This document shows positions 5,692 through 32,901 of a stretch of DNA of 54,002 nucleotides, one piece after another. The notes under the pieces were generated by a model that saw only the letters and a program-made list of their open reading frames with translations, did not search any database and was not told the origin of the DNA. A program made the position numbers and the translations under genes. Where the stretch lies: NCBI GenBank assembly GCA_020832225.1, contig JAFIFA010000018.1:1-54002 (forward strand), written 5' to 3'. The first letter of the stretch is position 1; each line of letters begins with the position of its first letter. The stretch comes from Balneolaceae bacterium. Lineage in GTDB: Bacteria > Bacteroidota > Rhodothermia > Balneolales > Balneolaceae.

Positions 5692-6186
5692 ATGCAAGAC
5701 GGAGCCCGATTTTTTGCCTACTCAACATGGTCGCTGATGATATCACTGGCCATCATTGTTACAACCCAAGGATTTCTCAGCTACATCTATGAACCAGGCT
5801 GGGTTGGGACACTTGTTCTACTCGGTTTTGGTTTTCTCTACCTCAATCTCGCCTATGCAGCTGTGAAGCGCTACATCCGAAAAGTGCCCGCTCCTACCAA
5901 TATGCATGTTGGACTGGGTATCATCATTGCATTACCCCCATCAGTTTGGGTCTATGTATCCGCCGATCCTGCCGTTGGTACGACAGACATTCTGATCATC
6001 CTGGTTCTCATCCTCTCATGCGGCCTCGGTGTTTTTTACGGTAACCGTGCCGGCATAAAGGCTCGTTATGAGTATATACAGGCGCTCAAAGAGCATCAGA
6101 AGAAGATGGAGAAGGCTGCGGAAGAAATGGAAGGCGGAAGCCGGAAGTCTGAAGCGGGTAGCTCAAAGCGAGAAGCTGAAAGCTGA
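5692..6186 (+). CDS. Small four-helix membrane protein of unknown function with a repeat-derived tail
   Basis: I do not recognise a family for this 164-aa protein. Four hydrophobic segments are visible (about residues 8-30, 36-58, 72-90 and 97-117), followed by a charged, probably cytoplasmic coiled-coil-like tail (EYIQALKEHQKKMEKAAEEM). The last 17 residues are low complexity (GGSRKSEAGSSKREAES). They are encoded by purine-rich direct repeats (GAAGC, GAAAGCTGAAAG) of the type that also border the intergenic element starting just downstream, so the natural C-terminus may have been extended when repeat DNA expanded into the gene. It may be co-transcribed with mce. Confidence 0.65.
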   Translation: MQDGARFFAYSTWSLMISLAIIVTTQGFLSYIYEPGWVGTLVLLGFGFLYLNLAYAAVKRYIRKVPAPTNMHVGLGIIIALPPSVWVYVSADPAVGTTDILIILVLILSCGLGVFYGNRAGIKARYEYIQALKEHQKKMEKAAEEMEGGSRKSEAGSSKREAES

Positions 6187-6204
6187 AAGGGATAAGCTAA
6201 ATGG

Positions 6205-6868
6205 AGGACCTGCCACCGTGCGCAGCTCGTGGCAGCGTCTGTTAGAAGTTGAATCGTTGATGTGCGGGAAGCTCAAAGGAGGTGAGATTTAAGTAATAGT
6301 CTCGCAGCGCTCTCCGCGCCTTCTCTGTGTCCGCAGCGGTAAAACCTCCCAAATTTTAATTGCAGCCCAAATCTACTTGTAACGGAAAAATGAAAAACAG
6401 GTCCGCAACAACTCGCAGCCACGGAACCCGTAACTCGCAACACCCTTGTCCAAAACCCTTCCAACTGCGCCTCGATGAACCCTTTTCCTTTTCAAAAATC
6501 TCTCCTCGGCGCGGGGTGGCATGGATCTTATATATCTACCCATATGTAGTCCCTGACGGGATAAGTTTTGCTCACAAATCTTAGTTGCCCTGGCTGGAAT
6601 GGTGTGCCCCTTCAGGGCTGGGGATGGAGGCCACCGATTTTATGCGGGGCGTTGCACCTTGCTATATTCGGCCGCCGCTTCGGGACTTGGGATTTGGGCA
6701 AACGTGAAAAGTTACCCTTAGTGACCTTTGTGCCTGCTTAGCATCCATTGTGGTTAAAAAACCCGCAACCCGCAACGCAAAGAGACGCTGCAAGATCCTC
6801 CGCTACGCTCCGGTGCTTGCAGGTCTGATCCGAAGCCCAAACCCACAACTCGAAACCTGTAACCCGCA
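6205..6868 (+). repeat. Modular intergenic repeat element, copy 1 (plus orientation)
   Basis: This 690-bp gap has no convincing gene and is filled by one nearly full-length copy. Order of blocks: GTGCGCAGCTCGTGGCAGCG (6218 onward); AGCTCAAAGGAGG (about 6270); the CTCGCAGCGCTCTCCGCG block (6300); a GCAGCCCAAATC block (6362); CTGCGCCTCGATGAACCC to CTCGGCGCGGGGTGG (6465-6530); TCTACCCATATGTAGTCCCT (6535); TTGCCCTGGCTGG and GCCCCTTCAGGGC (6588-6620); CTTAGTGACCTTTGTGCC (6717); GTGGTTAAAAAACCCGCAAC (6750); and an end block with GCTACGCTCCGG (6802). Positions 6765-6843 match 48040-48118 in inverted orientation at 78 of 79 bases. Confidence 0.8.
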
Positions 6869-6875
6869 ACTCAAC

Positions 6876-8294
6876 TTAGGCATCATCAAAATCCCCCCTA
6901 TTCTTCCGTGCGAAGTAATCTTTTGTGGCGTTCATCACTTTCGGAGCGAGGAGTATGGTGGCCGTCATAGTTGGAATTGCCATCAGGGCGAACATTCCGT
7001 CAATCAGGTTGATCACCATATCAATCGTGGTAATGGATCCTACAAAGATGGTGAAGATGTAGAAGTAGTTGTAGTAGTGCTTATTGTGCGCACCGCCAAG
7101 GAAGTTGAGGCACTTGGTGCCGTAATAGGAGTAGGTGAACATTGTGGTGATGCTGAAGATCAGAACACAGATCAGTAATAGATAGCTTCCAACCACCGGA
7201 ACACCCGTTTCAAAAGCGAGCGCTGTCATTGTAATACCATCCACCTCGGTGTTGGTCCATGCGCCGGTCATTAGCAGCGCAAGTGCGGTCATTGTACAGA
7301 TCAGCAGTGTATCGATTGCAGGCTCAAGCATCGCAACAAGCCCTTCACGAACGGGCTCACGGGTTTTGGCCGCGCCGTGCGCCATCGCTTCCATACCGAT
7401 ACCGGCTTCATTGGAGAAGGCGCCACGTCGAATACCGTTGGAGATCACAACACCCACAGCACCACCTGCTGCCGCCTGACCGGTAAAAGCGTCTGTAACG
7501 ATCAGCGTGAGGTAGTAAGGCACATCAACGATGTTGTTTACGATGATGTAGACCACGGTAAGTACATAGATAACCACCATCAGCGGAACCAGACGAGCGG
7601 CAACATGACCAATTCTGCGAATTCCACCGAAAATAACCATCGAAACAAGCCCTACAAGCACCAGTCCCATGATGATATCAGACAGCCTGAAACCTGTTTC
7701 CGTCAGAAAAGAGTCGGCCATCAACATGGTGTTGTAACCGAGATATCCGTTTTCAGCCAGCATGGTATCCCGCACAATTTGCGTTAGCTGGTTCGACTGG
7801 AACATCGGTGTACACCCAATCAAGCCGGCAATAGAGAAGAAAACAGCCAGAGGCTTCCACTTTTTCCCAAGTCCTTCGGTGATGAAGTACATCGGTCCAC
7901 CCTGAATCTTTCCGCTGGTATCCTTTCCGCGGTACATGATGGCGAGCGTACAGGTAAAAAACTTTGTTGCCATTCCGACAAGAGCGGTAATCCACATCCA
8001 GAAGATCGCTCCGGGGCCACCCACTCCAAGCGCAATGGCCACACCGCTGATGTTACCCATCCCGACGGTTGCCGCCAGTGCACTCGAAAGAGCCTGAAAG
8101 TGGTTGATATCGCCCGGCGCTGTGGGATCCTCATACTTCCCGGTAAGTACTTCAACACCATGGAAAAAGTGCCTGTATGGTGCAAATCGACAGTAGATGA
8201 GAAAGAAGACGCCACCGCCAACCAGCAGCACCAATAGCGGAGTTCCCCAGGCATAGTTCGCAAAATTGACAAGTAACTGTTCTAAATACTCCAG
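6876..8294 (-). CDS. Sodium:alanine/glycine symporter, AGCS family
   Basis: An inner-membrane amino-acid:sodium symporter of about 470 aa, rich in hydrophobic helices. The conserved GMGNISGVAIALGVGGPGAIFWMW segment (from about residue 75) and GIRRGAFSNEAGIGMEAMAHG are AGCS hallmarks. The first TTG/GTG in frame (8234-8229) would remove about 20 N-terminal residues that fit the family (EYLEQLLVNFANYAWGTP). Upstream of them no ATG, GTG or TTG exists before the in-frame stop. A CTG at 8294 has GAGG 7 bases before it and is proposed as the start; this is inference. The gene follows dinB- and marC-like genes on the same strand and its 3' end abuts repeat copy 1. Confidence 0.9.
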   Translation of the reverse strand: MEYLEQLLVNFANYAWGTPLLVLLVGGGVFFLIYCRFAPYRHFFHGVEVLTGKYEDPTAPGDINHFQALSSALAATVGMGNISGVAIALGVGGPGAIFWMWITALVGMATKFFTCTLAIMYRGKDTSGKIQGGPMYFITEGLGKKWKPLAVFFSIAGLIGCTPMFQSNQLTQIVRDTMLAENGYLGYNTMLMADSFLTETGFRLSDIIMGLVLVGLVSMVIFGGIRRIGHVAARLVPLMVVIYVLTVVYIIVNNIVDVPYYLTLIVTDAFTGQAAAGGAVGVVISNGIRRGAFSNEAGIGMEAMAHGAAKTREPVREGLVAMLEPAIDTLLICTMTALALLMTGAWTNTEVDGITMTALAFETGVPVVGSYLLLICVLIFSITTMFTYSYYGTKCLNFLGGAHNKHYYNYFYIFTIFVGSITTIDMVINLIDGMFALMAIPTMTATILLAPKVMNATKDYFARKNRGDFDDA

Positions 8295-8332
8295 TGGTAT
8301 ACCTCGTGCAGGTTCGTTTTACTTTAATCCCA

Positions 8333-8806
8333 TTATGAAGCCGCTAATCGGGAGTAGCCGGAAAAATCCTTAAGCGGCGTGTTAATATCACAATTTCTGA
8401 GAAAAAGTAAAATTTGTGCTCGATGATGTTCACCATGTTCCACCAGGTGCCGGCAGATACGGCTGATTGAGGCCTTTCTGTTTACCCCTTTTTCCGTCTC
8501 AAAATAGATCTCCGTTTCAAGGGCCACCTCGTGGTCGCCAATCAGGTCTATCCACTTCTGATGAGCCTCTTTTGCCCGAACCCGGATCTCATCAGGCGGG
8601 TACTCCTCCCATCGATCCGTATCCATATCCGGAAACTGAATCACCCTCTCAAACCAGTACTCCTGTACATTAACAATATGCGCCAGAAAGGCGGTAACGG
8701 CCGGACGATTCTGAAAGTGATCACGCTCTGTGAGCAGATCACAGAGTTTTCGTGTGCACCATAAATCGTAGCATAACAGGCGCTGATAGTTCTGCCGCTG
8801 ATCCAT
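8333..8806 (-). CDS. DinB-family protein
   Basis: A 157-aa four-helix-bundle protein of the DinB/YfiT type. Histidines that normally bind a metal are present: H43 (HIVNVQEYW) and the cluster H120/H124/H128 in RHLVEHGEHHRAQ. Family members are metal-dependent, thiol-using transferases or uncharacterised stress proteins; no substrate can be assigned here. It lies 13 bases after marC and 38 bases before the proposed start of the symporter gene, so the three are probably co-transcribed. Confidence 0.8.
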   Translation of the reverse strand: MDQRQNYQRLLCYDLWCTRKLCDLLTERDHFQNRPAVTAFLAHIVNVQEYWFERVIQFPDMDTDRWEEYPPDEIRVRAKEAHQKWIDLIGDHEVALETEIYFETEKGVNRKASISRICRHLVEHGEHHRAQILLFLRNCDINTPLKDFSGYSRLAAS

Positions 8807-8819
8807 TTTTATAACTGCT

Positions 8820-9494
8820 TTAGATTCCGAAATATCTTGAAATACCGCTCAGAATAAACTGAACACTAATTGCAAGCGCAATGAAGCCCATCAAACGAGT
8901 CATTACATTGAGTCCCGTAGGGCCGATGTATTTGGCAGAAATTGGTGCAAGCCTGAGCAGAATGTAGGTGCTCACAACCACCAAAAAGATTGAGATACCG
9001 TTCACAACAAAATGGGAAATACCTTCAGCCTGTGTAGCGAAACCGATCACCACCGCAATACTTCCGGGCCCCGAGAGCAGTGGCAGAGCCAGCGGACTAA
9101 AAGAGATATCCTCTTTTTCGAGAGCGGCTGCCTCATCTTCATCAGTCAATTTTTTGCCTCCCTTTTCAGGGTTGAGCATCGAGTAGGCCGCGCGCATAAT
9201 AATCAATCCACCTGCAATTCGGATACCCGCCAAAGAGATTCCGAAAAAACTCAGGATATAGGTACCCAATAGTAGAAAAACGATCAAAACCCCAAACATG
9301 TATACAGAGGCCCTCTTTGCGGTCTGGATGCGCTCTCTCTCATCAAACCGATCCGTTAGGGAGAGAAATAGAGGCATGGCCGCCAATGGGTTTACAACTG
9401 AAAACAGGGAGGTAAAGCTAGCGAAAAGTAGTGCGCCTGCGCCAATGAGATAGGAACTCTGCTCAGGCATTGATTCTGCGATAATTTCAAACAT
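8820..9494 (-). CDS. MarC-family integral membrane protein
   Basis: A 224-aa inner-membrane protein with about six hydrophobic helices. The opening FTSLFSVVNPLAAMPLFLSLTDRF, the GxxIxxFFGISLAGIRIAGG region and LPLLSGPGSIAVVIGFA are typical of MarC (UPF0056). The name comes from the marC locus of E. coli, but a role in drug resistance has not held up and the family's function is unknown. A cytoplasmic acidic loop (DEDEAAALEKED, about residues 118-129) separates the halves. It is the first gene of the likely marC-dinB-symporter operon and is divergent from the GAF gene across about 150 bp. Confidence 0.85.
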   Translation of the reverse strand: MFEIIAESMPEQSSYLIGAGALLFASFTSLFSVVNPLAAMPLFLSLTDRFDERERIQTAKRASVYMFGVLIVFLLLGTYILSFFGISLAGIRIAGGLIIMRAAYSMLNPEKGGKKLTDEDEAAALEKEDISFSPLALPLLSGPGSIAVVIGFATQAEGISHFVVNGISIFLVVVSTYILLRLAPISAKYIGPTGLNVMTRLMGFIALAISVQFILSGISRYFGI

Positions 9495-9647
9495 AGCCCT
9501 AAAGTTAAGGATGATTTCATAGATAAGGAATGATCATTTGAAGGATATTCTTCTCTACCGAAACTTTTCTTAACTTTGGGACCGAATTTTCTGCTGCACG
9601 GATACGTTGTCCGAATAAGCTTAATCAACCAATCCCAAATACCCCCG

Positions 9648-10103
9648 ATGAACACCGAGTCTATCCTCAAAAAAGCCAAAGAAATTATTCACGGAGAAGG
9701 AAGCCGAGATGAGAAGCTTCAGTCCGTATGCGAACTTCTGGACCGGGAAGTGGAACTGTTCGACTGGACAGGCTTCTACCTCTCCGACCCGAACGAAGAG
9801 CGGATGCTTGAATTAGGACCATTCGTAGGCGAAGCAACCGATCATACACGTATACCATACGGTATAGGTATTTGCGGCCAGGCCGCAGAAACCCATGAGA
9901 CATTCGTGGTTCAGGATGTATCAAAGGCTGATAACTATCTCGCCTGCAGCGTTGACGTTAAATCGGAAATTGTTGTGCCCATAATGAAGAATGGAGAGTT
10001 TTTGGGCGAGTTGGATATAGACTCCAATACCAAAAATGCGATCTCACCCGAACTTACCCGGCTGTGTGAGGAGATCTGCGAAGAGCTGGCCCATATTTTC
10101 TGA
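9648..10103 (+). CDS. msrC: GAF-domain protein, probable free methionine-(R)-sulfoxide reductase
   Basis: 151 aa from the ATG at 9648; the frame opens earlier at 9576, but that extension is atypical. The single GAF domain resembles fRMsr (YebR/MsrC), which reduces free methionine-(R)-sulfoxide. From memory of E. coli MsrC, the key cysteines are C94 and C118, 24 residues apart. Here C76 (GICGQA) and C100 (YLACS) have the same spacing, followed by the matching SEIVVPI strand. The third cysteine (C84 in E. coli) is replaced by H66. The sequence supports fRMsr activity with an altered regeneration step, but a GAF sensor role is not excluded. Transcribed divergently from marC. Confidence 0.8.
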   Translation: MNTESILKKAKEIIHGEGSRDEKLQSVCELLDREVELFDWTGFYLSDPNEERMLELGPFVGEATDHTRIPYGIGICGQAAETHETFVVQDVSKADNYLACSVDVKSEIVVPIMKNGEFLGELDIDSNTKNAISPELTRLCEEICEELAHIF

Positions 10104-10277
10104 TCTATTTTTGATTTTGACCCCTCCCTCAGAACGCATTAAGGCCCAACTTTGTAATAAGTTTTAAAATCGGCACTATTTCTTGTCATTTATTGTATCA
10201 ATGAAGGTGAAATTCACGTAGTGCTTTGTACATTCTCCGATTAATACGGACTCACAAACAATCAAAATTCTATAGGG

Positions 10278-11516
10278 TTGAAAAAGATACTATTTAGTTC
10301 CGGGGCGATTCTATCACTACTGCTTGTAATCTCTTGCGGCTCTGACAATTCAGATCAGCGCCAGGGGCAATGGCCCGGAGGTCAACGCGGCGGACAAGCC
10401 ACCAGCGTTGAAGTTGTACCCGTACAGGCAGAGGCTATTTCAGAGCAGGTTCGCTCCTACGGCACCATTCGTGCACGCGATATGGTCACCATTACCCCCC
10501 AAATCTCAAACCGCGTTGTGCGTATTCATGTGGATCTGGGCGACAACGTAACTCAGGGACAACTGATGGCCGAACTCTACGACACTCCCTACAGGGATGC
10601 TATGGAACAGGCTCAGGCTCAGATTCGTCAGGCCCGCGCCACACTTGAACGAGATAGTACCCAGTTTGCACGTCAACAACAGCTCTACGATCGCGAATTA
10701 ATAAGCAGTTCCGAGTTTGACGAATTTCGAACCAACTACCTGAATAGCCGCTCACAGTATGAGTCGGCACGTGCGAGCCTCACTCAGAGCCGGGAAGACC
10801 TTGAAAACACCCGAATCAAATCTCCGGTTGATGGTGTGATTCTGAATCGTATGATATCTGAAGGCGATGTAGCCTCAACCGGTACCGCCATCTTTGAAGT
10901 AGCAAACCTTGTAGGTTTTGAAACCCGTGTTTTTCTGCCAATGTCTGATTGGGAACGCGTTCAGGTTGGCCAGGAGGTTTCGATGTCATTATCGAGCCGA
11001 AGCAGTGAGATTGCTACCGGTGTGGTATCCAGAAAGAGCCCCCAACTCAACGCCTCATCAGGGCTTGGTGAGGTTGTAGTTACCCTCACAGAGGCCGCAT
11101 CTTCCGTTCATCAGGGCGCCTTGGTTCAGTCCAGAATTAACCTGGAGACTCGCGAAGGTGTTGTAGTAATTCCACGCTCGGCGATGGTTGAGAAGGTTGA
11201 TACATATATCGAACCCGAAACCGGAACGATTGAGCTTGAGCGAACCTATTCAGCTTTTGTGAATCAGGGCGACTCCATTGCGGTTCGCAGAACCCTTACC
11301 TTGGGCATTCAGCAGGGCGACAGAATTGAGATCCGTGATGGCCTTGAGCCGGGTGAAGGGCTCATTGTAACCGGTCACAGAAATCTTGAAGATGGTGCCA
11401 GAATCCGTGTAGCTGGCAGTGAAAGAAACAGACCGGAGAACATCTCCGGAGAACAGATTGAACAGATGCGACAACAGCGCGGCGGCCAAGGTGGCGGACG
11501 TTCCAGTAGCAATTAG
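10278..11516 (+). CDS. RND efflux periplasmic adaptor (membrane fusion) lipoprotein
   Basis: The 412-aa adaptor starts with TTG at 10278 and a lipoprotein signal peptide ending LLLVIS-C20, so it is anchored by lipid. A barrel-sandwich half motif (VVRIHVDLGDNVTQGQLMAEL), a long alpha-hairpin (about residues 105-170, rich in Q, A and R), the second half motif (IKSPVDGVILNRMISEGDVAS) and a beta-barrel follow, as in AcrA/MdtA. The tail is Gly/Arg/Gln rich (MRQQRGGQGGGRSSSN). It would link the two RND pumps encoded downstream to an outer-membrane channel. The first pump gene starts 32 bases after its stop. The start codon and the missing strong ribosome binding site suggest modest expression. Confidence 0.9.
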   Translation: MKKILFSSGAILSLLLVISCGSDNSDQRQGQWPGGQRGGQATSVEVVPVQAEAISEQVRSYGTIRARDMVTITPQISNRVVRIHVDLGDNVTQGQLMAELYDTPYRDAMEQAQAQIRQARATLERDSTQFARQQQLYDRELISSSEFDEFRTNYLNSRSQYESARASLTQSREDLENTRIKSPVDGVILNRMISEGDVASTGTAIFEVANLVGFETRVFLPMSDWERVQVGQEVSMSLSSRSSEIATGVVSRKSPQLNASSGLGEVVVTLTEAASSVHQGALVQSRINLETREGVVVIPRSAMVEKVDTYIEPETGTIELERTYSAFVNQGDSIAVRRTLTLGIQQGDRIEIRDGLEPGEGLIVTGHRNLEDGARIRVAGSERNRPENISGEQIEQMRQQRGGQGGGRSSSN

Positions 11517-21519: not shown

Positions 21520-22281
21520 TTACATCCAGCTCAATAAATCTTCACCTCGGGTATCAGACTCCACATACTGTTCAAAGATCTCACTAAGGTTGGAATCTTT
21601 CTGAAGTTCTTTGCGGCTCTCAGAGTCGAGATAGGCGAGAATTTTTCCCTGATGCAGGATGGCGATATCATCACACAGATTTTCTACCACTTCCAGGATA
21701 TGGCTTGTAATAAAGATCGTGGTTCCCCTCTCCTTCAACTTCCTGATCACCGACTTCATCCGCCCGATCGATATCACATCCACACTTTCAAACGGCTCAT
21801 CCAGAAAGAGGAGCTTTGGTTCGGTCAGAATTGCGGCACAGAATGCGAGCTTTTTTCGGCTACCTGACGAGAGCTGCTTGGTCTTCACATGGATAAACTC
21901 ATCAATTTCGAAATAGCTGAATAGCGAATTGATCCGCGAGCTAAGCTCCACGATCTCCTTTCCATACATTTCGCAGACGTAGGTGACAAACTCGTAGCTC
22001 GTAAAGTTTTCAAAGAGCAGAGGGGGCTGAAGCACGGACGCCACATTGCGCTTAATCTCAATCTCATTTGCAGAGTTGTAGGGAAGTCCATTCACCTCGA
22101 TAGAGCCGGTGCCATAGTCCAGCAGCCCGGTCAAAATTCCGATCAATGTACTCTTTCCTGCGCCGTTAGGGCCAATAAGGCCAAAGATGTTGCCTGATGG
22201 TACTTCAAGGTTTAACTCCTTGAGAACAGGAGTCATATCATACGCTTTGGTCAGTTCCCTGATAATTAAAGCTCGTTCCAT
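21520..22281 (-). CDS. ABC transporter ATP-binding protein
   Basis: The 253-aa ATPase has Walker A GPNGAGKS (37-44), signature LSSGS (137-141), Walker B LLFLDEP (157-163) and the switch histidine H194 (TSHILEVVE), so it is complete. It should power the two membrane proteins encoded immediately upstream; its start overlaps the preceding permease gene by 16 bases, implying translational coupling. Sequence type is that of ABC-2-like exporters. No substrate can be assigned. Confidence 0.92.
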   Translation of the reverse strand: MERALIIRELTKAYDMTPVLKELNLEVPSGNIFGLIGPNGAGKSTLIGILTGLLDYGTGSIEVNGLPYNSANEIEIKRNVASVLQPPLLFENFTSYEFVTYVCEMYGKEIVELSSRINSLFSYFEIDEFIHVKTKQLSSGSRKKLAFCAAILTEPKLLFLDEPFESVDVISIGRMKSVIRKLKERGTTIFITSHILEVVENLCDDIAILHQGKILAYLDSESRKELQKDSNLSEIFEQYVESDTRGEDLLSWM

Positions 22282-23840
22282 AATTTGGGTATCAGTTTTC
22301 GGGTTATCAGGTTTCCGGCCGTTTTGAATCGATTTATAAGCAGACGGAGCAGCACCAGATTCAGAATAAATAGCACCAGCACATGGATGATCTGAAAGCT
22401 CTCAAAGACCGGAAACGAAAGAAGCCCCGCAAAGAGGACCACAAAGAAGCTGGTAAAAGAGACTGAGCTGGGCACCACCGGATTTGAGATCGACATCAGG
22501 CTAACCTGCTCAATTTTCTTGTAGTTTTCAAAAGAACTCCATGAGATAAAATAGAGAAAAGTGAAGCAAATGAGCAGTACCCCAAACAGCATCTGAATCA
22601 TCGTGAGCCACTCGCTAACCAGAAAAGGAATTAATACAAAAATAAAGGCTGATCCGGTTGCTGATATTGCAAGGGCAGAGAAGATTCGCCTTAAAAAAAT
22701 CTGCTTCTTTTCAGCAGGAAACTGAAGTGAAAGCAGCAGTTCACGATTCTCAAATCCAAAAGTGTTGGAGAGCATCACCATCAGGTAAGTAACGGGTATC
22801 AGGGTGAACATGATCATCGCAAAAGATGGGCTGATCAATCCTTCCTCTGTAGTAAGCATCAAAACGAGGTAGATCGCTACAAAAAAGTAGATAAAAAGAA
22901 CTTGTGTACGGCAGTAGACATGGTTCCATACTGAGTAGAGGTATTTCCCTCCCTCCTTTCCGAACCATCGCTTCAGCATCTTTAGAGTCCACCTGCTGCC
23001 TGTAAGGCGTTTGCTCTGCTCCATCGGCTGCTGAAGCGCACTTCGGGTGTCCGACCTTAATACCATCCAGAGCCCAATCAGCACCATAACCATACCAGCA
23101 GCAGAACCCCCTCCTTTGAGCGTAAAGCCTGCCCCCTCACCAAAATAGATCATCAGCATGCCGGGCGACCATACCAGCCAGCTGAGAAGGGATTCAACCC
23201 ACTCCTGAGAAAATGTAAACTCACTCCTTGCAATAATCTGAGGCCCAATCAGAATCCAGACAAAGATAAAAAGCATCAGGCCTGCATTTACCCACTGCTG
23301 CTTATCGGAGCCCGTTTTAAACCGGGATTTCACCATACTGATTACTCCATAGTTGGTGAGAACCAGCATAACCACCACAATCACACCAAACAGATCGCTT
23401 GCCAGAGGGATGAAGTAGAAGAGCCAGATTAGATGAAAAAAGAGGTTCATGGGGTGCATCAAAGCGGCCAGATTCAGAAAACGGACCACTTTATTCATCG
23501 AGAACCCGAGGGCGATCAGCTTTCTGTTCTCTGAAAACTGCATCCGGCTGGCTCTGGTAAAAAAGAGCTGTCCCAGCCAGACCGAATTCAGAAAGGCGAG
23601 CTGTATCAAAAGGCCAACTTCAGCTGTGTACCAGCTATAGACCTCTTTCAGCTGAGCCGAGTCGGATGTAAAGATGATCGCAATTGCCGTTGCCGCAAAC
23701 TGGGCAAAAACAATCAGCACAAAAAGAGTGTAGAGCACGATGGCGGCAACTTCGATTGAGCTCACCGATCGCCACCAGATCTTCGCATTGATGGTGAGAA
23801 ACAGCCTGAATTCCTGAAGTGTACCTCCGTTCACCAACAT
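22266..23840 (-). CDS. ABC exporter membrane subunit (permease B)
   Basis: The 524-aa protein has about ten or more hydrophobic helices and no ATPase domain. The start at 23840 has a strong Shine-Dalgarno sequence (GGAGGGAG about 10 bases upstream) and lies 4 bases after the stop of permease A; a longer frame from 23897 would overlap that gene and is rejected. It is a paralogue of permease A: both share an ENRKL-(I/L)-A-(L/F)-G segment after helix 3 and a Y/F-ENRE-(L/F)-LL segment after a later helix. I do not recognise a named family, so the role as an export permease is from context. Confidence 0.78.
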   Translation of the reverse strand: MLVNGGTLQEFRLFLTINAKIWWRSVSSIEVAAIVLYTLFVLIVFAQFAATAIAIIFTSDSAQLKEVYSWYTAEVGLLIQLAFLNSVWLGQLFFTRASRMQFSENRKLIALGFSMNKVVRFLNLAALMHPMNLFFHLIWLFYFIPLASDLFGVIVVVMLVLTNYGVISMVKSRFKTGSDKQQWVNAGLMLFIFVWILIGPQIIARSEFTFSQEWVESLLSWLVWSPGMLMIYFGEGAGFTLKGGGSAAGMVMVLIGLWMVLRSDTRSALQQPMEQSKRLTGSRWTLKMLKRWFGKEGGKYLYSVWNHVYCRTQVLFIYFFVAIYLVLMLTTEEGLISPSFAMIMFTLIPVTYLMVMLSNTFGFENRELLLSLQFPAEKKQIFLRRIFSALAISATGSAFIFVLIPFLVSEWLTMIQMLFGVLLICFTFLYFISWSSFENYKKIEQVSLMSISNPVVPSSVSFTSFFVVLFAGLLSFPVFESFQIIHVLVLFILNLVLLRLLINRFKTAGNLITRKLIPKLWNEL

Positions 23841-23844
23841 TTCT

Positions 23845-25395
23845 TTAAAACTCCCTCCAAATCTGTTCAAGTATACGTGCTCTGAAGGCTTTTGCAAGCA
23901 GGTCGAAATTTCTCCAGATATAGATGGTTATCGCCAGAATTAGCGCTGCCATAACCCAAAGTCTGTAGGGCTGCCATTCGCCCAAGGGCACAAATACGGC
24001 GTAACCAAGAATAAAGATCACGGCCGACATCGTAAAGGTTACTTTCTGAGAGATAATTGGGTGTTTGAAACTGAACGAACTGTAGCTAACTCTTTGGTAG
24101 TGATAGAATGAGCTCCATAGAAAGACCATCATAAAACAGGTAAAGAAGAAGGTGTTCGCGATGTAGATCGAAAAGACCGAACCCAGTTGAGGCAGCATTA
24201 GCAGTTCAAAAATGGTGATGCCGTAGAAGATAAAGAGAGGTATGAGGATGATCCCGAGGAACCGCTCCTTTAACTGTTTTTCAAGCGGTACCGGCAGCTG
24301 CATGTGAAGAAGAAATTCGCGGTTTTCATAGCCAAACATATTGGCCATCACCATACCGAGCAGCGCGACCGGAATTGCCGCCAGAACGATCGCAATCAGG
24401 GTGGTTGAGACCGCTCCAAGATCTACAATCAACAGCAGCGGTACGTATACGAGTGGGATCAGCGCGATTGCCAGAAGCTGCAGCTTGTTGTAAGAGTGAG
24501 TGGCCACATAGAAGTAGTACTTCCCCGCATTCGCGCCCAACCACCGTTTCAAAAAGCCAAAAAGCCTCCCCTGCTCCCTCACCACCGATTGCTGATTTGG
24601 CGTCATCAGCCCCTCTTTCGTTTTATAGAAGTGATCGCGGAAGATCAAAAATGTCAGAACCACGAGAAAAAAGAAGATCGTACCGGCAAGAATTGGCGTC
24701 ATCGTTTCAAACGTACTTTGATAGAGAAGACCGCCCGGCAGCCAAATCAGCACATCCATCAAAGCAGAGGGCTCAATGGTGATCTGCCCCATATCTGCCT
24801 GATAGCGCCGGGAGAAGATGGCAATTACCGATGCTACCCCAAATATGATGAAGAGACCGCTAAAGACGATGATCTTAAAGCGGCGCTCTACCATTCTGAG
24901 AAACCGGTGCTTAATGGAGTAGATGATGCCGTAGTTCAAAAGCACTGCCGCAACCACTACAGGGATATTGATACCACCCTGAATCTGAAGTACAAGAAAG
25001 ATGATCCATGTGATATTGTAGATCACGTTTACCGGATGGTAAAGACACATCAGGTTAAGATGCCAGGTGAGCTTCCTAACGGGATAGCCGAATGCCAACA
25101 ACTTCCGGTTCTCCTCCATATTGAGCAGGCGGGTACTTGTAAAGGCAAAGTGAAAAATCCAGAATACATTGGCAAACGTCACCAGAATCAGCTGGTGAAT
25201 CTCCGGGGTAAGCCAGGGTAGTTCCACGTCGATTGCGGAGGTGCTGTCGAGAAAAATAACGATCAGTGCACTACCTGCAAGATTGACCATCATCACCAAA
25301 AGGAAAAGCGAATAGCCCACCAAAAGAAGAGTCTGCAGGCGGGTCATCCTTGCAAGAAATAGCTTCCAGTTAAGATAGAGAAGCCTTCCAATCAT
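23845..25395 (-). CDS. ABC exporter membrane subunit (permease A)
   Basis: The 516-aa polytopic membrane protein is the first gene of the export operon. Shared blocks with permease B (MEENRKLLAFGYPVRKL; FGYENREFLLHMQLP) show an ancient duplication. The order permease A, permease B, ATPase, acyltransferase suggests a heterodimeric exporter acting on an envelope component. Cargo is unknown. The upstream 80-bp gap separates it from the beta-barrel genes on the same strand. Confidence 0.78.
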   Translation of the reverse strand: MIGRLLYLNWKLFLARMTRLQTLLLVGYSLFLLVMMVNLAGSALIVIFLDSTSAIDVELPWLTPEIHQLILVTFANVFWIFHFAFTSTRLLNMEENRKLLAFGYPVRKLTWHLNLMCLYHPVNVIYNITWIIFLVLQIQGGINIPVVVAAVLLNYGIIYSIKHRFLRMVERRFKIIVFSGLFIIFGVASVIAIFSRRYQADMGQITIEPSALMDVLIWLPGGLLYQSTFETMTPILAGTIFFFLVVLTFLIFRDHFYKTKEGLMTPNQQSVVREQGRLFGFLKRWLGANAGKYYFYVATHSYNKLQLLAIALIPLVYVPLLLIVDLGAVSTTLIAIVLAAIPVALLGMVMANMFGYENREFLLHMQLPVPLEKQLKERFLGIILIPLFIFYGITIFELLMLPQLGSVFSIYIANTFFFTCFMMVFLWSSFYHYQRVSYSSFSFKHPIISQKVTFTMSAVIFILGYAVFVPLGEWQPYRLWVMAALILAITIYIWRNFDLLAKAFRARILEQIWREF

Positions 25396-25475: not shown

Positions 25476-26123
25476 TCAGAAGGTGAAGCCGGTTACAACT
25501 GAAAAAACACGGCTCTGTCCGTCGGCAAATGTAAACATACCTCTAACCCCATAGCTATAACGGGTCTGAAGATTGAAAGTAGCGTCACCGACTTTAAGGT
25601 CAAGCCCAAGGCCCCCAATGAGCCCTGTATCTAGCGTGTTCACGGTGTGGCTGATGTCGAAGAAATCGAACGGCCCCAGATCATCACGGTAGGGTTCCAC
25701 CTCTGCATTGAGAAGAATCCCCAAATAGGGACCGAAAATGGCGTGCGGTGTAAGAGAACCATAGGATCGAAACGGATACTTTGCAAGAATCGGAATCTCA
25801 AGAAAATCGAGCTTCGTCATCTTGTTCCCTTCCGAACCCTGGCCAAATACAGGCAGATCGGTAAACATCTCCGCTCCTTTCTCTGAATAGTAGATACCTG
25901 TCTCCAGGTCAACCGGCAGAAATGGAATCACCACCTCCACCACTGTACCGAAATGAATACCACGCCTGGAACCCTGCCCATCCAGATAACCGCCGCTAAC
26001 ATCGGCTACATTCAACCCTCCTTTCATACCAATAGAAATTCCTGACTGCGCCTGGCTATCGTTGGGTGAGATCAGAAAAAGGGAAAAGCAAAAAGGTATA
26101 ACTATCCAAAAAGCGCGGTTCAT
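25476..26123 (-). CDS. Outer-membrane beta-barrel protein (OMP_b-brl_2 type)
   Basis: The 215-aa protein has a signal peptide ending near SQAQS and starts its mature part with GISIGMKGGLNVADVSGG, the usual first strand of PorT-like small barrels. Alternating strands follow, and it ends in a phenylalanine (VVTGFTF), the C-terminal signal for BAM-dependent outer-membrane insertion. Function is unknown; such barrels are abundant in Bacteroidota. It is a paralogue of the neighbouring gene at 26185, and both are probably co-transcribed. Confidence 0.85.
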   Translation of the reverse strand: MNRAFWIVIPFCFSLFLISPNDSQAQSGISIGMKGGLNVADVSGGYLDGQGSRRGIHFGTVVEVVIPFLPVDLETGIYYSEKGAEMFTDLPVFGQGSEGNKMTKLDFLEIPILAKYPFRSYGSLTPHAIFGPYLGILLNAEVEPYRDDLGPFDFFDISHTVNTLDTGLIGGLGLDLKVGDATFNLQTRYSYGVRGMFTFADGQSRVFSVVTGFTF

Positions 26124-26184: not shown

Positions 26185-26829
26185 TTAGAACGTAAAACCG
26201 GCAACCAGGGAGAACACACGGCTTTTGGCATCACTCTCTTCAAATAGATCGCTGAGCCCGTATGAGTATCGGCCCTGAAGCGAAAAACGCGACAGGCCAA
26301 AATTAAAATCTACTCCTACTCCACCGATGATACCGAAATCGTAGTCGTTCACTTCGTCAGATATATCAACCGTGCCCTCGGAACTGCCCGCTATCTCAGA
26401 ATTGATATTATAGGAACCATAGGGACCAAGGAGAATATGTGGCTCAACAAGCCCGGGACTGCCAAACCAGAATTTAGCCAGAACGGGCACCTTTACATAG
26501 TCGAGTCGATAGGTAAGGTCGCCGGAGAGCCCTCCATTCGATACCTGATCAGGCGTCGCTACGGAGATCGACGTTCCTTTTTGAGAGTAGTAGATGCCGG
26601 TCTCAAAGCCTACAGGAAGCATCGGGAAAGAGAATTCAGCAACTGCCCCAACCTCCACTCCGTTTCTGCGGTCAAAAGCGCTGAAATTCGCGCTGCCATC
26701 GATATTGGCAAAATTGAGCCCCCCTTTGATACCGAAACTAACCGGACTTTGTGCATCCGCTGCAGGAGCAGAGAGGGCTGTGAAGATGAATAGGATAAGT
26801 GGAACAGTGAGTAGCTTTTTGTACATCAT
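26185..26829 (-). CDS. Outer-membrane beta-barrel protein (paralogue of the next gene)
   Basis: This is a 214-aa barrel with a signal peptide (ending DAQS) and the same architecture as the protein at 25476. Shared words include FGIKGGLNFANIDG, ETGIYYSQKG, KFWFGSPG/KYPFRSYG, HxILGPYxxYN/GILLNAE and SRVFSLVAGFTF. Similar length and a 61-bp spacing point to a tandem duplication with substantial divergence. Specific function unknown. Confidence 0.85.
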   Translation of the reverse strand: MMYKKLLTVPLILFIFTALSAPAADAQSPVSFGIKGGLNFANIDGSANFSAFDRRNGVEVGAVAEFSFPMLPVGFETGIYYSQKGTSISVATPDQVSNGGLSGDLTYRLDYVKVPVLAKFWFGSPGLVEPHILLGPYGSYNINSEIAGSSEGTVDISDEVNDYDFGIIGGVGVDFNFGLSRFSLQGRYSYGLSDLFEESDAKSRVFSLVAGFTF

Positions 26830-29968: not shown

Positions 29969-30260
29969 TTTAACCTCTGCGTTCGCTGCGGCTCCTCGGC
30001 GGTCTTTGCGGTTTACCCAAGCCTGAACTCGATTTTTGGGTTATTTCCGGCTTCACGGACCTTTTAAACCGCGGCGGGCGCGGCGTAGGCGCTGGGGGGC
30101 GCAGCGGGTTTGCGGGCTAAATTAAGACTCTGCGTTCTCTGCGACTCCCCGGCGGTCTTTGCGGTTAACCCGGGCCTGAAATCTATTTTTGGGCTATTCA
30201 CGGGTTCACGGATCTTTTAAACCGCGGCGGGCGCGGCGTAGGCGCTGGGGGCGCGGTGTT
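29969..30260. repeat. 153-bp tandem repeat built from the CTGCG block
   Basis: Two direct copies are offset by 153 bases: 29975-30127 and 30128-30260. Both begin with CTCTGCGTTC, continue through CGGCGGTCTTTGCGGTT and a GGGTTATT/GGGCTATT word, and end in TTTTAAACCGCGGCGGGCG and CGGCGTAGGCGCTGGGGG. They share the GC-rich block of the modular repeat family but carry a unit end not seen elsewhere in the window. The region fills the gap between uvrA and the amidohydrolase pair. Confidence 0.8.
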
Positions 30261-30270
30261 TTTCTCAGGA

Positions 30271-30310
30271 AAAAAAGGGCCCGCTTACCATTGGTTAACG
30301 GGCCCTTTTA
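30271..30310. terminator. Bidirectional rho-independent terminator
   Basis: A 7-bp stem GGGCCCG (30277-30283) / CGGGCCC (30299-30305) is flanked by an A-run on the left and a T-run on the right, so it can work on both strands. On the minus strand it ends the amidohydrolase operon, whose last stop codon is 30 bases away. Confidence 0.85.
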
Positions 30311-30339
30311 ATCTGTTTCAATCGTCTTTGATTACCGGT

Positions 30340-31596
30340 TTAATCGCCGTCGCCAGCATAGTGCTCGCCATCGATGAAGACCGCTTCTACCCTGGTCAGG
30401 TATTCAAAAGGGTCTCCATCAAAAAGAACCAGATCGGCGTCCATTCCACGTTCAATCGATCCAACACGATCGCTGATGCCGAGGATCTCTGCCGCTCCTT
30501 TGGTCATTGCGTAGAGCGCATTCTCCATCCCAAGACCGTTCGCTGCAGCGATCGCCGCCTCGTAACGTGCAATTCGGGATTTGGGCACATACGCTTCATA
30601 CCCACTCTGAAATGCGATGGGAACGCCTGCCTCATGAAGCTTACCGGCGGTTTCAAAACTGGAGTTTTTCGCCTCGCCGGATGGACGTACCATGGTTGGA
30701 TGGATCACAACGGGAACACCTGCCTCCTTTATCTCGTCAAGAACAAGGTATGCTTCCGCGGCTCCTTCCAGAACCATATCAAAACCAAACTCACGCTGAA
30801 TGCGCAGTGCGGTCATGATATCGTGTGCTGTCTGAGCGTAGACCAGCGCTGTCACCTCTCCATCAATCAAATCAGCCAGTTTCTCCATCTTGAGATCGGT
30901 GCCGTTGGTTTCGCCTTCAGCGCGTTTGGCCGCATAGTCCTCAGCGCGAACCAGCTCCTGCCGAAGAACCGAAACGGTTTTTGACCGTGTTCCGGGCGAA
31001 CTGAAATTACCGCGCACCATCGATCCAAGCGTCATAGAAAGCATCTTTGTATCAACGATGGAAGCCTGCTCCACGGTTGTGCCCTTGGTTTTCACGATCA
31101 TGGTCTGACCACTTATCACCGCTCCCGGGCCATGTCCGGTATGGATTGTCGTCATTCCCTTTCCGCGAAGGTACTCAACCAGAAACTCACGGGCGTTGTA
31201 GGAGTCGTAGGCCCTCAGTTCCGGCTGAACCGCATCAGAAGTTTCGAGCTGATCCTGATCGTGATTCTGATTGTAGTAGCCGGCAAGCCCCACTACGGAG
31301 CGGGCATCGATCATACCCGGAGTAACCACCTTTGCCTCATAAACTTCGTAACCATCTGGGATATTTACCCGGTTTTGGGTTCCAACCTGCTCGATCACAC
31401 CGTTATTGATCAACACAACCCCATTTGAAATCGGGTTGCCGTTCATCGTGTAGACCGTTTCACCTTTCACAGCCACCTGTGCAGAAACCCTCTCTACAGG
31501 GAGCATAACCAACATCAGCAGCACTGCTGCAGAGACAAGGGCTGTACCGATACGCTTCTTCATTTTAACTGCTCTTTTCATTTTCATGGTATTCAT
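30340..31596 (-). CDS. Secreted amidohydrolase-fold protein lacking metal ligands (probable pseudoenzyme)
   Basis: The 418-aa protein has an N-terminal signal sequence (hydrophobic stretch to VERVSAQ, residue 40) and aligns along its length with the amidohydrolase encoded 12 bases upstream. Every metal-site motif is degraded: PGMIDARSVVG replaces PGLVDTHSHIG (R99 and V101 in place of the HxH), YAQTAHDI replaces HNHTHRHDD, LEGAAEA replaces LQHVSEG, and FQSGYEA replaces FHTDDP. The fold-stabilising features and the C-terminal EYLTRVEAVFIDGEHY end are kept. It is therefore probably non-catalytic; a partner or regulator of the neighbouring active enzyme is the natural guess. Confidence 0.8.
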   Translation of the reverse strand: MNTMKMKRAVKMKKRIGTALVSAAVLLMLVMLPVERVSAQVAVKGETVYTMNGNPISNGVVLINNGVIEQVGTQNRVNIPDGYEVYEAKVVTPGMIDARSVVGLAGYYNQNHDQDQLETSDAVQPELRAYDSYNAREFLVEYLRGKGMTTIHTGHGPGAVISGQTMIVKTKGTTVEQASIVDTKMLSMTLGSMVRGNFSSPGTRSKTVSVLRQELVRAEDYAAKRAEGETNGTDLKMEKLADLIDGEVTALVYAQTAHDIMTALRIQREFGFDMVLEGAAEAYLVLDEIKEAGVPVVIHPTMVRPSGEAKNSSFETAGKLHEAGVPIAFQSGYEAYVPKSRIARYEAAIAAANGLGMENALYAMTKGAAEILGISDRVGSIERGMDADLVLFDGDPFEYLTRVEAVFIDGEHYAGDGD

Positions 31597-31608
31597 ATCC
31601 GTATCCCC

Positions 31609-32901
31609 TTAATGATGTGAATGGTTGCTGCTCATACGGAAGATTTCGTAGCCGCCAGTGGCATACTCACGATCTTCCGGATTGCTACGATCCCACGCCT
31701 TTTCACCATCAATCCAGGTCTGTTCGATATGGGTATATACACTAAACGGATCTCCGGAGAGAATCAGGAAGTCGGCATCTTTCCCCTCTTCAAGGGAACC
31801 AACTCGATCCTCGAGATCCATCATTTTCGCTCCGTTAATAGTAAGGGCTTCGAGTGCAGTTTGGCGGCTCATTCCCTCTTTCACTCCCATTGCGGCCATT
31901 CGGAGGAAAAACCGGGAGTCTACAATCGGGTCATCCGTATGAAATGCCACCAGCGCACCTGCCTGCTCCAGTTCGCGACCGTTAATGTTCAGAAGATTGA
32001 TCGCCTCCATCTTTCCGCCCGGAGAGTCGAGTCCGATAATGGACGACCCCAAGATATCTGCATTCGCAATCTCTTCGGCCACTTTCCACCCTTCGCTAAC
32101 GTGCTGCAATACCAAACGATAGCCAAACTCATCGGCGAGACGGATAGCGGTCAGAATGTCGTCGTGGCGGTGAGTGTGATTGTGCACAATTCGCTTCCCT
32201 TCGAGCACTTCAACCAGTGTCTCCATCTGAAGGTCACGCGCCGGCATCTTTTCGGGATCGCCATCAGCTTCCTCTACCCTGCGCTGGTAATCCTGTGCCT
32301 GCACAAAAAGATTTCGCACAATTGCAGCCGACTTTGCCCTTGTGCCGGGAGTGCCGCCTGCCCGAAGCGGATTTGTACCGTTTGCCATTTTGATTCCGCC
32401 ATAAATTCCTGCCTCTTCATCCACCATAATCAGCATCTGCTCGATCGTGTTGGCAGGGCGTGTTTTCAGGTAGACGGTCTGACCGCTCATCAGAAGTCCC
32501 GAACCTGGCATCACGTTGGCAGTGGTGATACCACCCGCCATCGCTTTTTTGAAGGTGCTGCTTTGCGGATCGATGGTGTCCATAATCCGAACATCGGGAT
32601 GCATGGTTGCCGAACGATCTCCGCCATCTCCCTCTCCGATGTGCGAATGGGTATCAACCAGTCCCGGCATAATCACCTTGTCGGAAACATCGTGACGCTC
32701 CGCGTTTCGGGGAATCGAGACGTCTCCGCTCCGCCCTACGGCAGTAATTTTTCCATTTTCAACAATCAGAACACCATTTGATATGGGTTCACCGGTTATG
32801 GGGATGATGGTGGCCCCCTCAAAAACCTGGGCGCGATCTTGTGCCGTGAGCGCCATGCTCCAGCATAAAACCATCACCGTCAACGTCAGCAATTTTTTCA
32901 T
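31609..32901 (-). CDS. Secreted metal-dependent amidohydrolase
   Basis: The 430-aa protein starts at the ATG at 32901 with a signal peptide (KKLLTLTVMVLCWSMALTAQ, residues 2-21); the frame opens upstream but that stretch is not signal-like. The amidohydrolase/imidazolonepropionase-like metal site is intact: H85 and H87 in PGLVDTHSHIG, further histidines in VHNHTHRHDD and LQHVSEG, and FHTDDP near the end. It should hydrolyse an amide or cyclic amide outside the cytoplasm; substrate unknown. First gene of a two-gene operon with the degenerate paralogue downstream. Confidence 0.85.
   Translation of the reverse strand: MKKLLTLTVMVLCWSMALTAQDRAQVFEGATIIPITGEPISNGVLIVENGKITAVGRSGDVSIPRNAERHDVSDKVIMPGLVDTHSHIGEGDGGDRSATMHPDVRIMDTIDPQSSTFKKAMAGGITTANVMPGSGLLMSGQTVYLKTRPANTIEQMLIMVDEEAGIYGGIKMANGTNPLRAGGTPGTRAKSAAIVRNLFVQAQDYQRRVEEADGDPEKMPARDLQMETLVEVLEGKRIVHNHTHRHDDILTAIRLADEFGYRLVLQHVSEGWKVAEEIANADILGSSIIGLDSPGGKMEAINLLNINGRELEQAGALVAFHTDDPIVDSRFFLRMAAMGVKEGMSRQTALEALTINGAKMMDLEDRVGSLEEGKDADFLILSGDPFSVYTHIEQTWIDGEKAWDRSNPEDREYATGGYEIFRMSSNHSHH

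Follow-up and report, generated by a model that had tools for sequence, protein, structure and literature searches.

The window analysed here is a 54,002-nucleotide stretch of a contig from a Balneolaceae bacterium, and it contains two genes of the amidohydrolase superfamily, referred to below as B and A. The genes lie head to tail on the same minus strand, with B upstream of A, and the features of the locus are as follows, in the order of transcription.

31609–32901, minus strand: gene B, intact amidohydrolase, probably exported, 430 aa; ligand columns H85, H87, H242, H267 and D323, with the conserved His 240 and His 244 flanking ligand columns
31597–31608, minus strand: intergenic gap of 12 bases between the B stop and the A start; an AAGGGG motif, ribosome-site-like as read from the sequence, overlaps the B stop
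30340–31596, minus strand: gene A, ligand-less paralogue, 418 aa; R, V, Y, G and E at the ligand columns; A-specific conserved residues include D113, Q114, L139, G154, E334, Y336, V337, P338, K339, E346 and E398
30270–30310, minus strand: candidate intrinsic terminator of the two-gene unit, a strong hairpin with a T run downstream of it, some 30 bases 3′ of the A stop

The length given for B is counted from an inner ATG; the mechanical ORF list uses an upstream ATG, which yields 446 aa. BLASTP aligned A with B at 127 identities over 408 positions (31 %; 178 bits, 28 gaps, E 7e-56), and a hydrophobic stretch can be read at the N-terminus of both, bearing out the claim of the initial annotation that the two adjacent secreted proteins align along their length. 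By a crude hydropathy window, which is not a signal-peptide predictor, such a stretch was present in 111 of 113 B and 106 of 115 A proteins from a thinned set of pairs, and both A and B are probably exported. The segment downstream of A (30266–30339) was predicted to fold at −29.5 kcal/mol (z −5.3), with none of 200 shuffles equally stable. The hairpin and its T run are likely to be the terminator of the B–A unit, judging from this fold; a consensus terminator scan did not pick up the hairpin.

Both proteins belong to the amidohydrolase superfamily by Pfam gathering cut-offs, with scores of 42.7 bits (A) and 61.6 bits (B) against a cut-off of 25 for PF01979, and of 35.3 and 66.1 bits against 29.7 for PF07969. 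The best sub-threshold models of B came from a group comprising Xaa-Pro dipeptidase, Arg carboxypeptidase and imidazolonepropionase: B scored 75 and A 54.9 bits with the Xaa-Pro dipeptidase model NF051886 (cut-off 500), and 66 and 37.9 bits, respectively, with the imidazolonepropionase HutI model TIGR01224 (cut-off 298.15). As none of the 25 NCBIfam models listed gives B a score anywhere near its curated cut-off (best 75 of 500 bits), no substrate name is justified, and naming a substrate for B from these models was rejected. The best solved relative of both proteins, over nearly their full length, is the Thermotoga maritima amidohydrolase 3ooq (E 8.2e-54 for A, E 7.7e-65 for B), an identifier for which we found no paper in the one open-access library searched. 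It differs from A in that His and Asp are kept at the ligand columns (HSH, HAH, EHG and D in the alignment).

Loss of the metal site and conservation of the A lineage

Catalytic members of the amidohydrolase superfamily carry an HxH motif on strand 1, His residues on strands 5 and 6, and an Asp on strand 8. From this superfamily pattern, we take H85, H87, H242, H267 and D323 of B to be the metal-binding residues. B has the complete catalytic ligand set, and A does not show the same pattern: in a profile alignment, the columns occupied by H, H, H, H and D in B hold R, V, Y, G and E in A. The canonical residue was found at each of these columns in 51–52 of 54 deduplicated B sequences, the remainder being gaps (two to three) and a single Gln at position 267, where the B protein of one locus (L061) has Gln in place of the strand-6 His. 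The strand-8 Asp of B lies opposite Glu334 of A in the profile alignment, in a region where A has two extra residues, whereas BLASTP puts the gap at another place. The earlier statement that A has lost all metal ligands therefore stands for the five columns, but one of the residue pairings given for it, HNHTH to YAQTA, was wrong: it is two residues out of register, and BLASTP aligns the HNHTH of B 240–244 with LVYAQ.

The ligand-less state is widespread and stable among relatives. We scored 481 domain matches with one profile, of which 444 covered at least 280 of its 409 positions and 330 of those were unique; domains with lower coverage were left out of the ligand counts and trees. The distribution among the 330 distinct domains had two peaks, with 157 carrying all five ligands, 167 carrying none or one, and just six lying between the peaks; three or more of these six are truncated domains or duplicates (L019 is a truncated intact domain, and L004 and L213 represent the same protein). 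All 152 distinct A-type domains kept none or one of the five ligands and had Glu at the strand-8 column; the A-type set was chosen by this Glu, and the A clade in the tree includes no domain without it. The first His was kept in 75 of the 152, the strand-5 His in two, and the second His and the strand-6 His in none, the remaining ligand columns being mostly V/T, T/S/N and G/S. Positions that are conserved in the A clade (116 tips, support 0.999) and not in B are mainly 113–114, 139, 154, 334–339, 346 and 398, and no new conserved His/Cys set was found among the 49 positions conserved at 95 % in A.

A is also maintained as a coding gene. None of the 67 A matches in a sample of the phylum contained an internal stop; three A matches outside this sample (in G036, G405 and G418) were listed with one stop codon, yet in each a single open frame covers the domain. 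The median dN/dS within the genus was 0.063 for A (85 usable pairs, 23 genomes, range 0.019–0.149) and 0.055 for B (93 pairs), single ratios being rough because many synonymous distances are high. Purifying selection on A is nearly as strong as on B. The initial annotation had named a decaying second gene or a restored metal site in relatives as the observations that would refute its reading, and neither was seen, with 152 of 152 A-type domains ligand-poor and 67 of 67 matches free of stops.

Gene order, spacing and co-occurrence

Conservation of the pair in relatives, also suggested earlier as a check, proved to be strict. Each of the 195 fetched loci that contain a single B and a single A, repeat fetches included, has B ahead of A in the same orientation, and the number of unique B/A pairs was 142. 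The genes are closely coupled: with the start of A chosen by rule, a median of −1 base separated the stop of B from the ATG of A, the two genes overlapped in 62 of 106 cases, and 100 of 106 lay within 60 bases. The identity matrices of A and B correlated across 115 thinned pairs (rho 0.75, against 0.15 for the best of 200 permutations), as is expected of any two co-inherited genes.

Among 296 genomes of the phylum, 67 had both A and B, one more (G020) had B only, and 228 had neither gene at E 1e-70. In G020, the sole genome with B alone, B is cut by a contig end, and in a further genome (G264) A and B fall on two contigs, each match lying near a contig end or start. A without a visible B was seen in the fetched loci L055, L062 and L069 and in the copies of L069 (L116, L118 and L232), all of which begin at or near the upstream contig end. 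The pair is not confined to the window's own group, which is Bacteroidota in the wide sense: the phylum of locus L071, presumably Planctomycetota through its assignment to the Phycisphaerales, had A matches at E 1e-90 or better in 31 of 199 genomes, and that of L069, taken as Acidobacteriota, in 22 of 199.

One genome (G237) departs from this pattern. It carries a single gene (L201:4429-5775) that joins the N-terminal half of B to the C-terminal half of A, with HHHGE at the ligand columns; the protein is B-like to about position 261 (best 40-residue identities 0.72–0.90) and A-like beyond (0.72–0.90). This gene is a deletion chimera of B and A rather than a case of a restored metal site. No normal B/A pair was found in the G237 genome, which was counted for both A and B through the chimera. 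As G237 keeps only the chimera, at least one genome can dispense with the B/A pair.

Fusions, tandem loci and lone relatives in the wider subfamily

The association of intact and ligand-less domains extends beyond the A/B pairs. With B as the query, 33 of 60 genomes of the phylum gave matches at E 1e-30, and all 47 intact-domain loci in those 33 genomes had at least one ligand-less paralogue fused or nearby, the unfused partners lying no more than about 0.7 kb (745 bases) away. These loci comprise 15 B/A pairs, 31 other loci and a second locus of the window genome. In several of the 47, the alignment of the dead domain leaves out its first ligand columns, and its state is judged from the others.

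In many loci, the two types of domain are joined. One-frame fusions link an intact domain to an A-type domain in L194–L198 and to another ligand-less domain in L187, L199, L200, L239–L243, L245–L247 and L252, and a ligand-less domain followed by an intact one in a single frame was found in 16 of the 31 other loci from the B-query sample. Many loci fetched from the two other phyla likewise had intact and ligand-less domains in one open frame. The second locus of the window genome (L213; G000:C213:20000-36000, 5976–10306) encodes a ligand-less domain and an intact one within a single 992-aa frame and, after that frame, a 465-aa ligand-less protein. The other amidohydrolases of the window genome served as a control: of its 16 Amidohydro_1 matches in all, five belong to the two clusters and none of the remaining 11 is a neighbour of another, with contig ends and weak matches possibly hiding partners among the 11. 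In one locus (L200; G550:C4:11000-20000), three successive intact/ligand-less pairs lie within 9 kb, the last of them in one frame.

In addition to the loci above, 20 weaker loci were hand-picked from searches with A as the query, and 18 of them have a partner, in a choice that favoured loci with partners; the other two are L237 and L236. Lone intact relatives were represented by L237, four records from Bacillota and Actinomycetota, and possibly L236, which lies about 1 kb from a contig end; their existence indicates that in some proteins the catalytic fold can do without a partner. By the same crude measure as above, five of these six lack a hydrophobic N-terminal stretch, and that of L236 seems to precede its probable start. 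In the wider set, a hydrophobic N-terminal stretch was seen in 60 of 77 ORFs with the dead domain first and 26 of 30 with the intact domain first, many of the misses being partly aligned domains. A link between pairing and export is at this stage a lead rather than a finding.

A tree of 293 domains placed all 126 intact domains in one group (support 0.844), with just three ligand-less tips among them, and required three changes between the intact and ligand-less states, as against at least 80 in 200 shuffles. On balance, we lean slightly towards a reading in which the whole exported subfamily would consist of obligate active/dead heteromers, an intact domain almost never occurring without one or two ligand-less paralogues in tandem, fused or flanking, and in which the dead lineages would be old. 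For annotation, these findings carry a warning, as many proteins that match amidohydrolase models in these phyla cannot be usual metal hydrolases.

Candidate roles of A and surroundings of the pair

Retention of A beside B had been taken, in the initial annotation, to argue for a non-catalytic function, a view that gains support from the conservation of the pair, the selection on A and the persistence of its ligand-less state. Our data are consistent with a model, which we consider the likely one, where A is a constitutive dead subunit, structural or activating, of an exported heteromeric amidohydrolase formed with B. Such a subunit would account for the fact that A and B are so strictly paired, that their genes overlap, that fusions occur and that A is under selection. 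An ancient duplication may have given rise to a copy that lost the metal site and kept the barrel, although both the age and the order of the duplication are only proposed here. A and B, made from overlapping or abutting genes, would be exported and assembled as a hetero-oligomer, an arrangement favoured by the gene overlaps, the natural one-frame fusions and the coupling in all 47 loci. Within this hetero-oligomer, B alone would hydrolyse the substrate, which might be of the peptide or amide type. A would stabilize B, keep it active, or both, if regulation runs in that direction, and the former active-site mouth of A, with its invariant Glu and Tyr and nearly invariant Lys, may bind a ligand or dock on B.

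Structure prediction, in the form of the co-folding that the initial annotation had proposed, speaks to the fold of A. When B and A were modelled as one read-through chain with 33 alignment rows, both halves were well formed (mean pLDDT 81.2, pTM 0.61); the same joint chain with seven paired rows gave a pLDDT of 45.2 and a pTM of 0.32. A keeps the barrel in the model, as its half finds its best solved relative by fold in 3ooq_F, with a Z of 50.2 (371 aligned residues, rmsd 2.1), and the B half matches the same three-enzyme group as the sub-threshold family models (Z 25–27). The pTM of 0.61 is compatible with the presence or the absence of a defined A:B interface, and the model neither shows nor excludes one. 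The 33-row alignment (A4) was the one used for the joint fold; another (A3) is in register but smaller, and two mixed alignments, with A rows on the B half (A1) and B rows on the A half (A5), were set aside because their identities and invariant columns pointed to misplaced rows.

Alternatively, A could be a separate exported binding protein, such as a scavenger, a sensor or an inhibitor sink, that shares the operon with B and never touches it. Gene overlap and co-inheritance need only a joint demand for both products, and A has invariant residues of its own; however, intact and ligand-less domains are naturally fused in one frame in both orders, which makes an independent role for A unlikely. 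It is likewise improbable that A has become an enzyme with a new, metal-free or differently liganded chemistry, acting through Glu334, Tyr336, Lys339 and Glu346 at the old strand-8 site. The clustering of A-specific residues at 334–346, the first His retained in about half of the A-type domains, and the Glu that faces the old catalytic Asp throughout that set, itself chosen by this Glu, would suit such a change, but the V/T, T/S/N and G/S residues that mostly fill the other ligand columns and the lack of a new conserved His/Cys set among the conserved positions of A speak against it. Finally, although the complete metal site is lost, a decaying pseudogene is so improbable, given a dN/dS close to that of B, stop-free matches and clade-wide invariant positions, that purifying selection and clade-wide conservation rule it out, together with a sequencing artefact.

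The preferred reading of A as a dead subunit has parallels among other enzymes. The Pseudomonas protein pDHO is reported to be an inactive dihydroorotase homologue required for the activity of aspartate transcarbamoylase (PMC7053772). The role proposed for A is comparable, but pDHO serves the unrelated ATCase, whereas the likely partner of A is the active paralogue itself and the A/B pair appears to be exported. In trypanosomatids, a dead paralogue of deoxyhypusine synthase and the prozyme of AdoMet decarboxylase are each reported to activate the active copy through a complex (PMC3663545, PMC5201418). These cases concern other enzymes and eukaryotes, whereas A and B occur in bacteria of several phyla, as tandem genes and natural fusions. 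The active/dead pairs cited are single cases, and the A-type clade is common to at least three phyla and stays beside the active copy. We found no description of such active/dead amidohydrolase pairs in the one open-access library searched, which takes in few subscription papers. If the heteromer is confirmed, the A/B system would offer a direct test case of how a dead subunit becomes indispensable, with natural fusions, a deletion chimera and lone relatives all at hand for comparison.

The surroundings of the pair were compared across 27 loci of more than 8 kb and the window. Neighbours recurring in four to seven of them included uvrA-, metK- and ruvB-like genes (identified by eye) and others, some of the neighbour families being ORFs antisense to A and B. 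The recurrence looks like local synteny of near relatives, and a function derived from neighbours was rejected. Within the window, an intergenic 124-base direct repeat, 90 % identical, lies downstream of A (29975–30098 and 30128–30251). Further along, a 516-aa protein (23845–25395), membrane-like by eye and with no Pfam match at E 0.001, clusters with the neighbouring ORF at about 22269–23927, and the segments 25476–26123 and 26185–26829 encode two tandem outer-membrane beta-barrel paralogues (PF13568).
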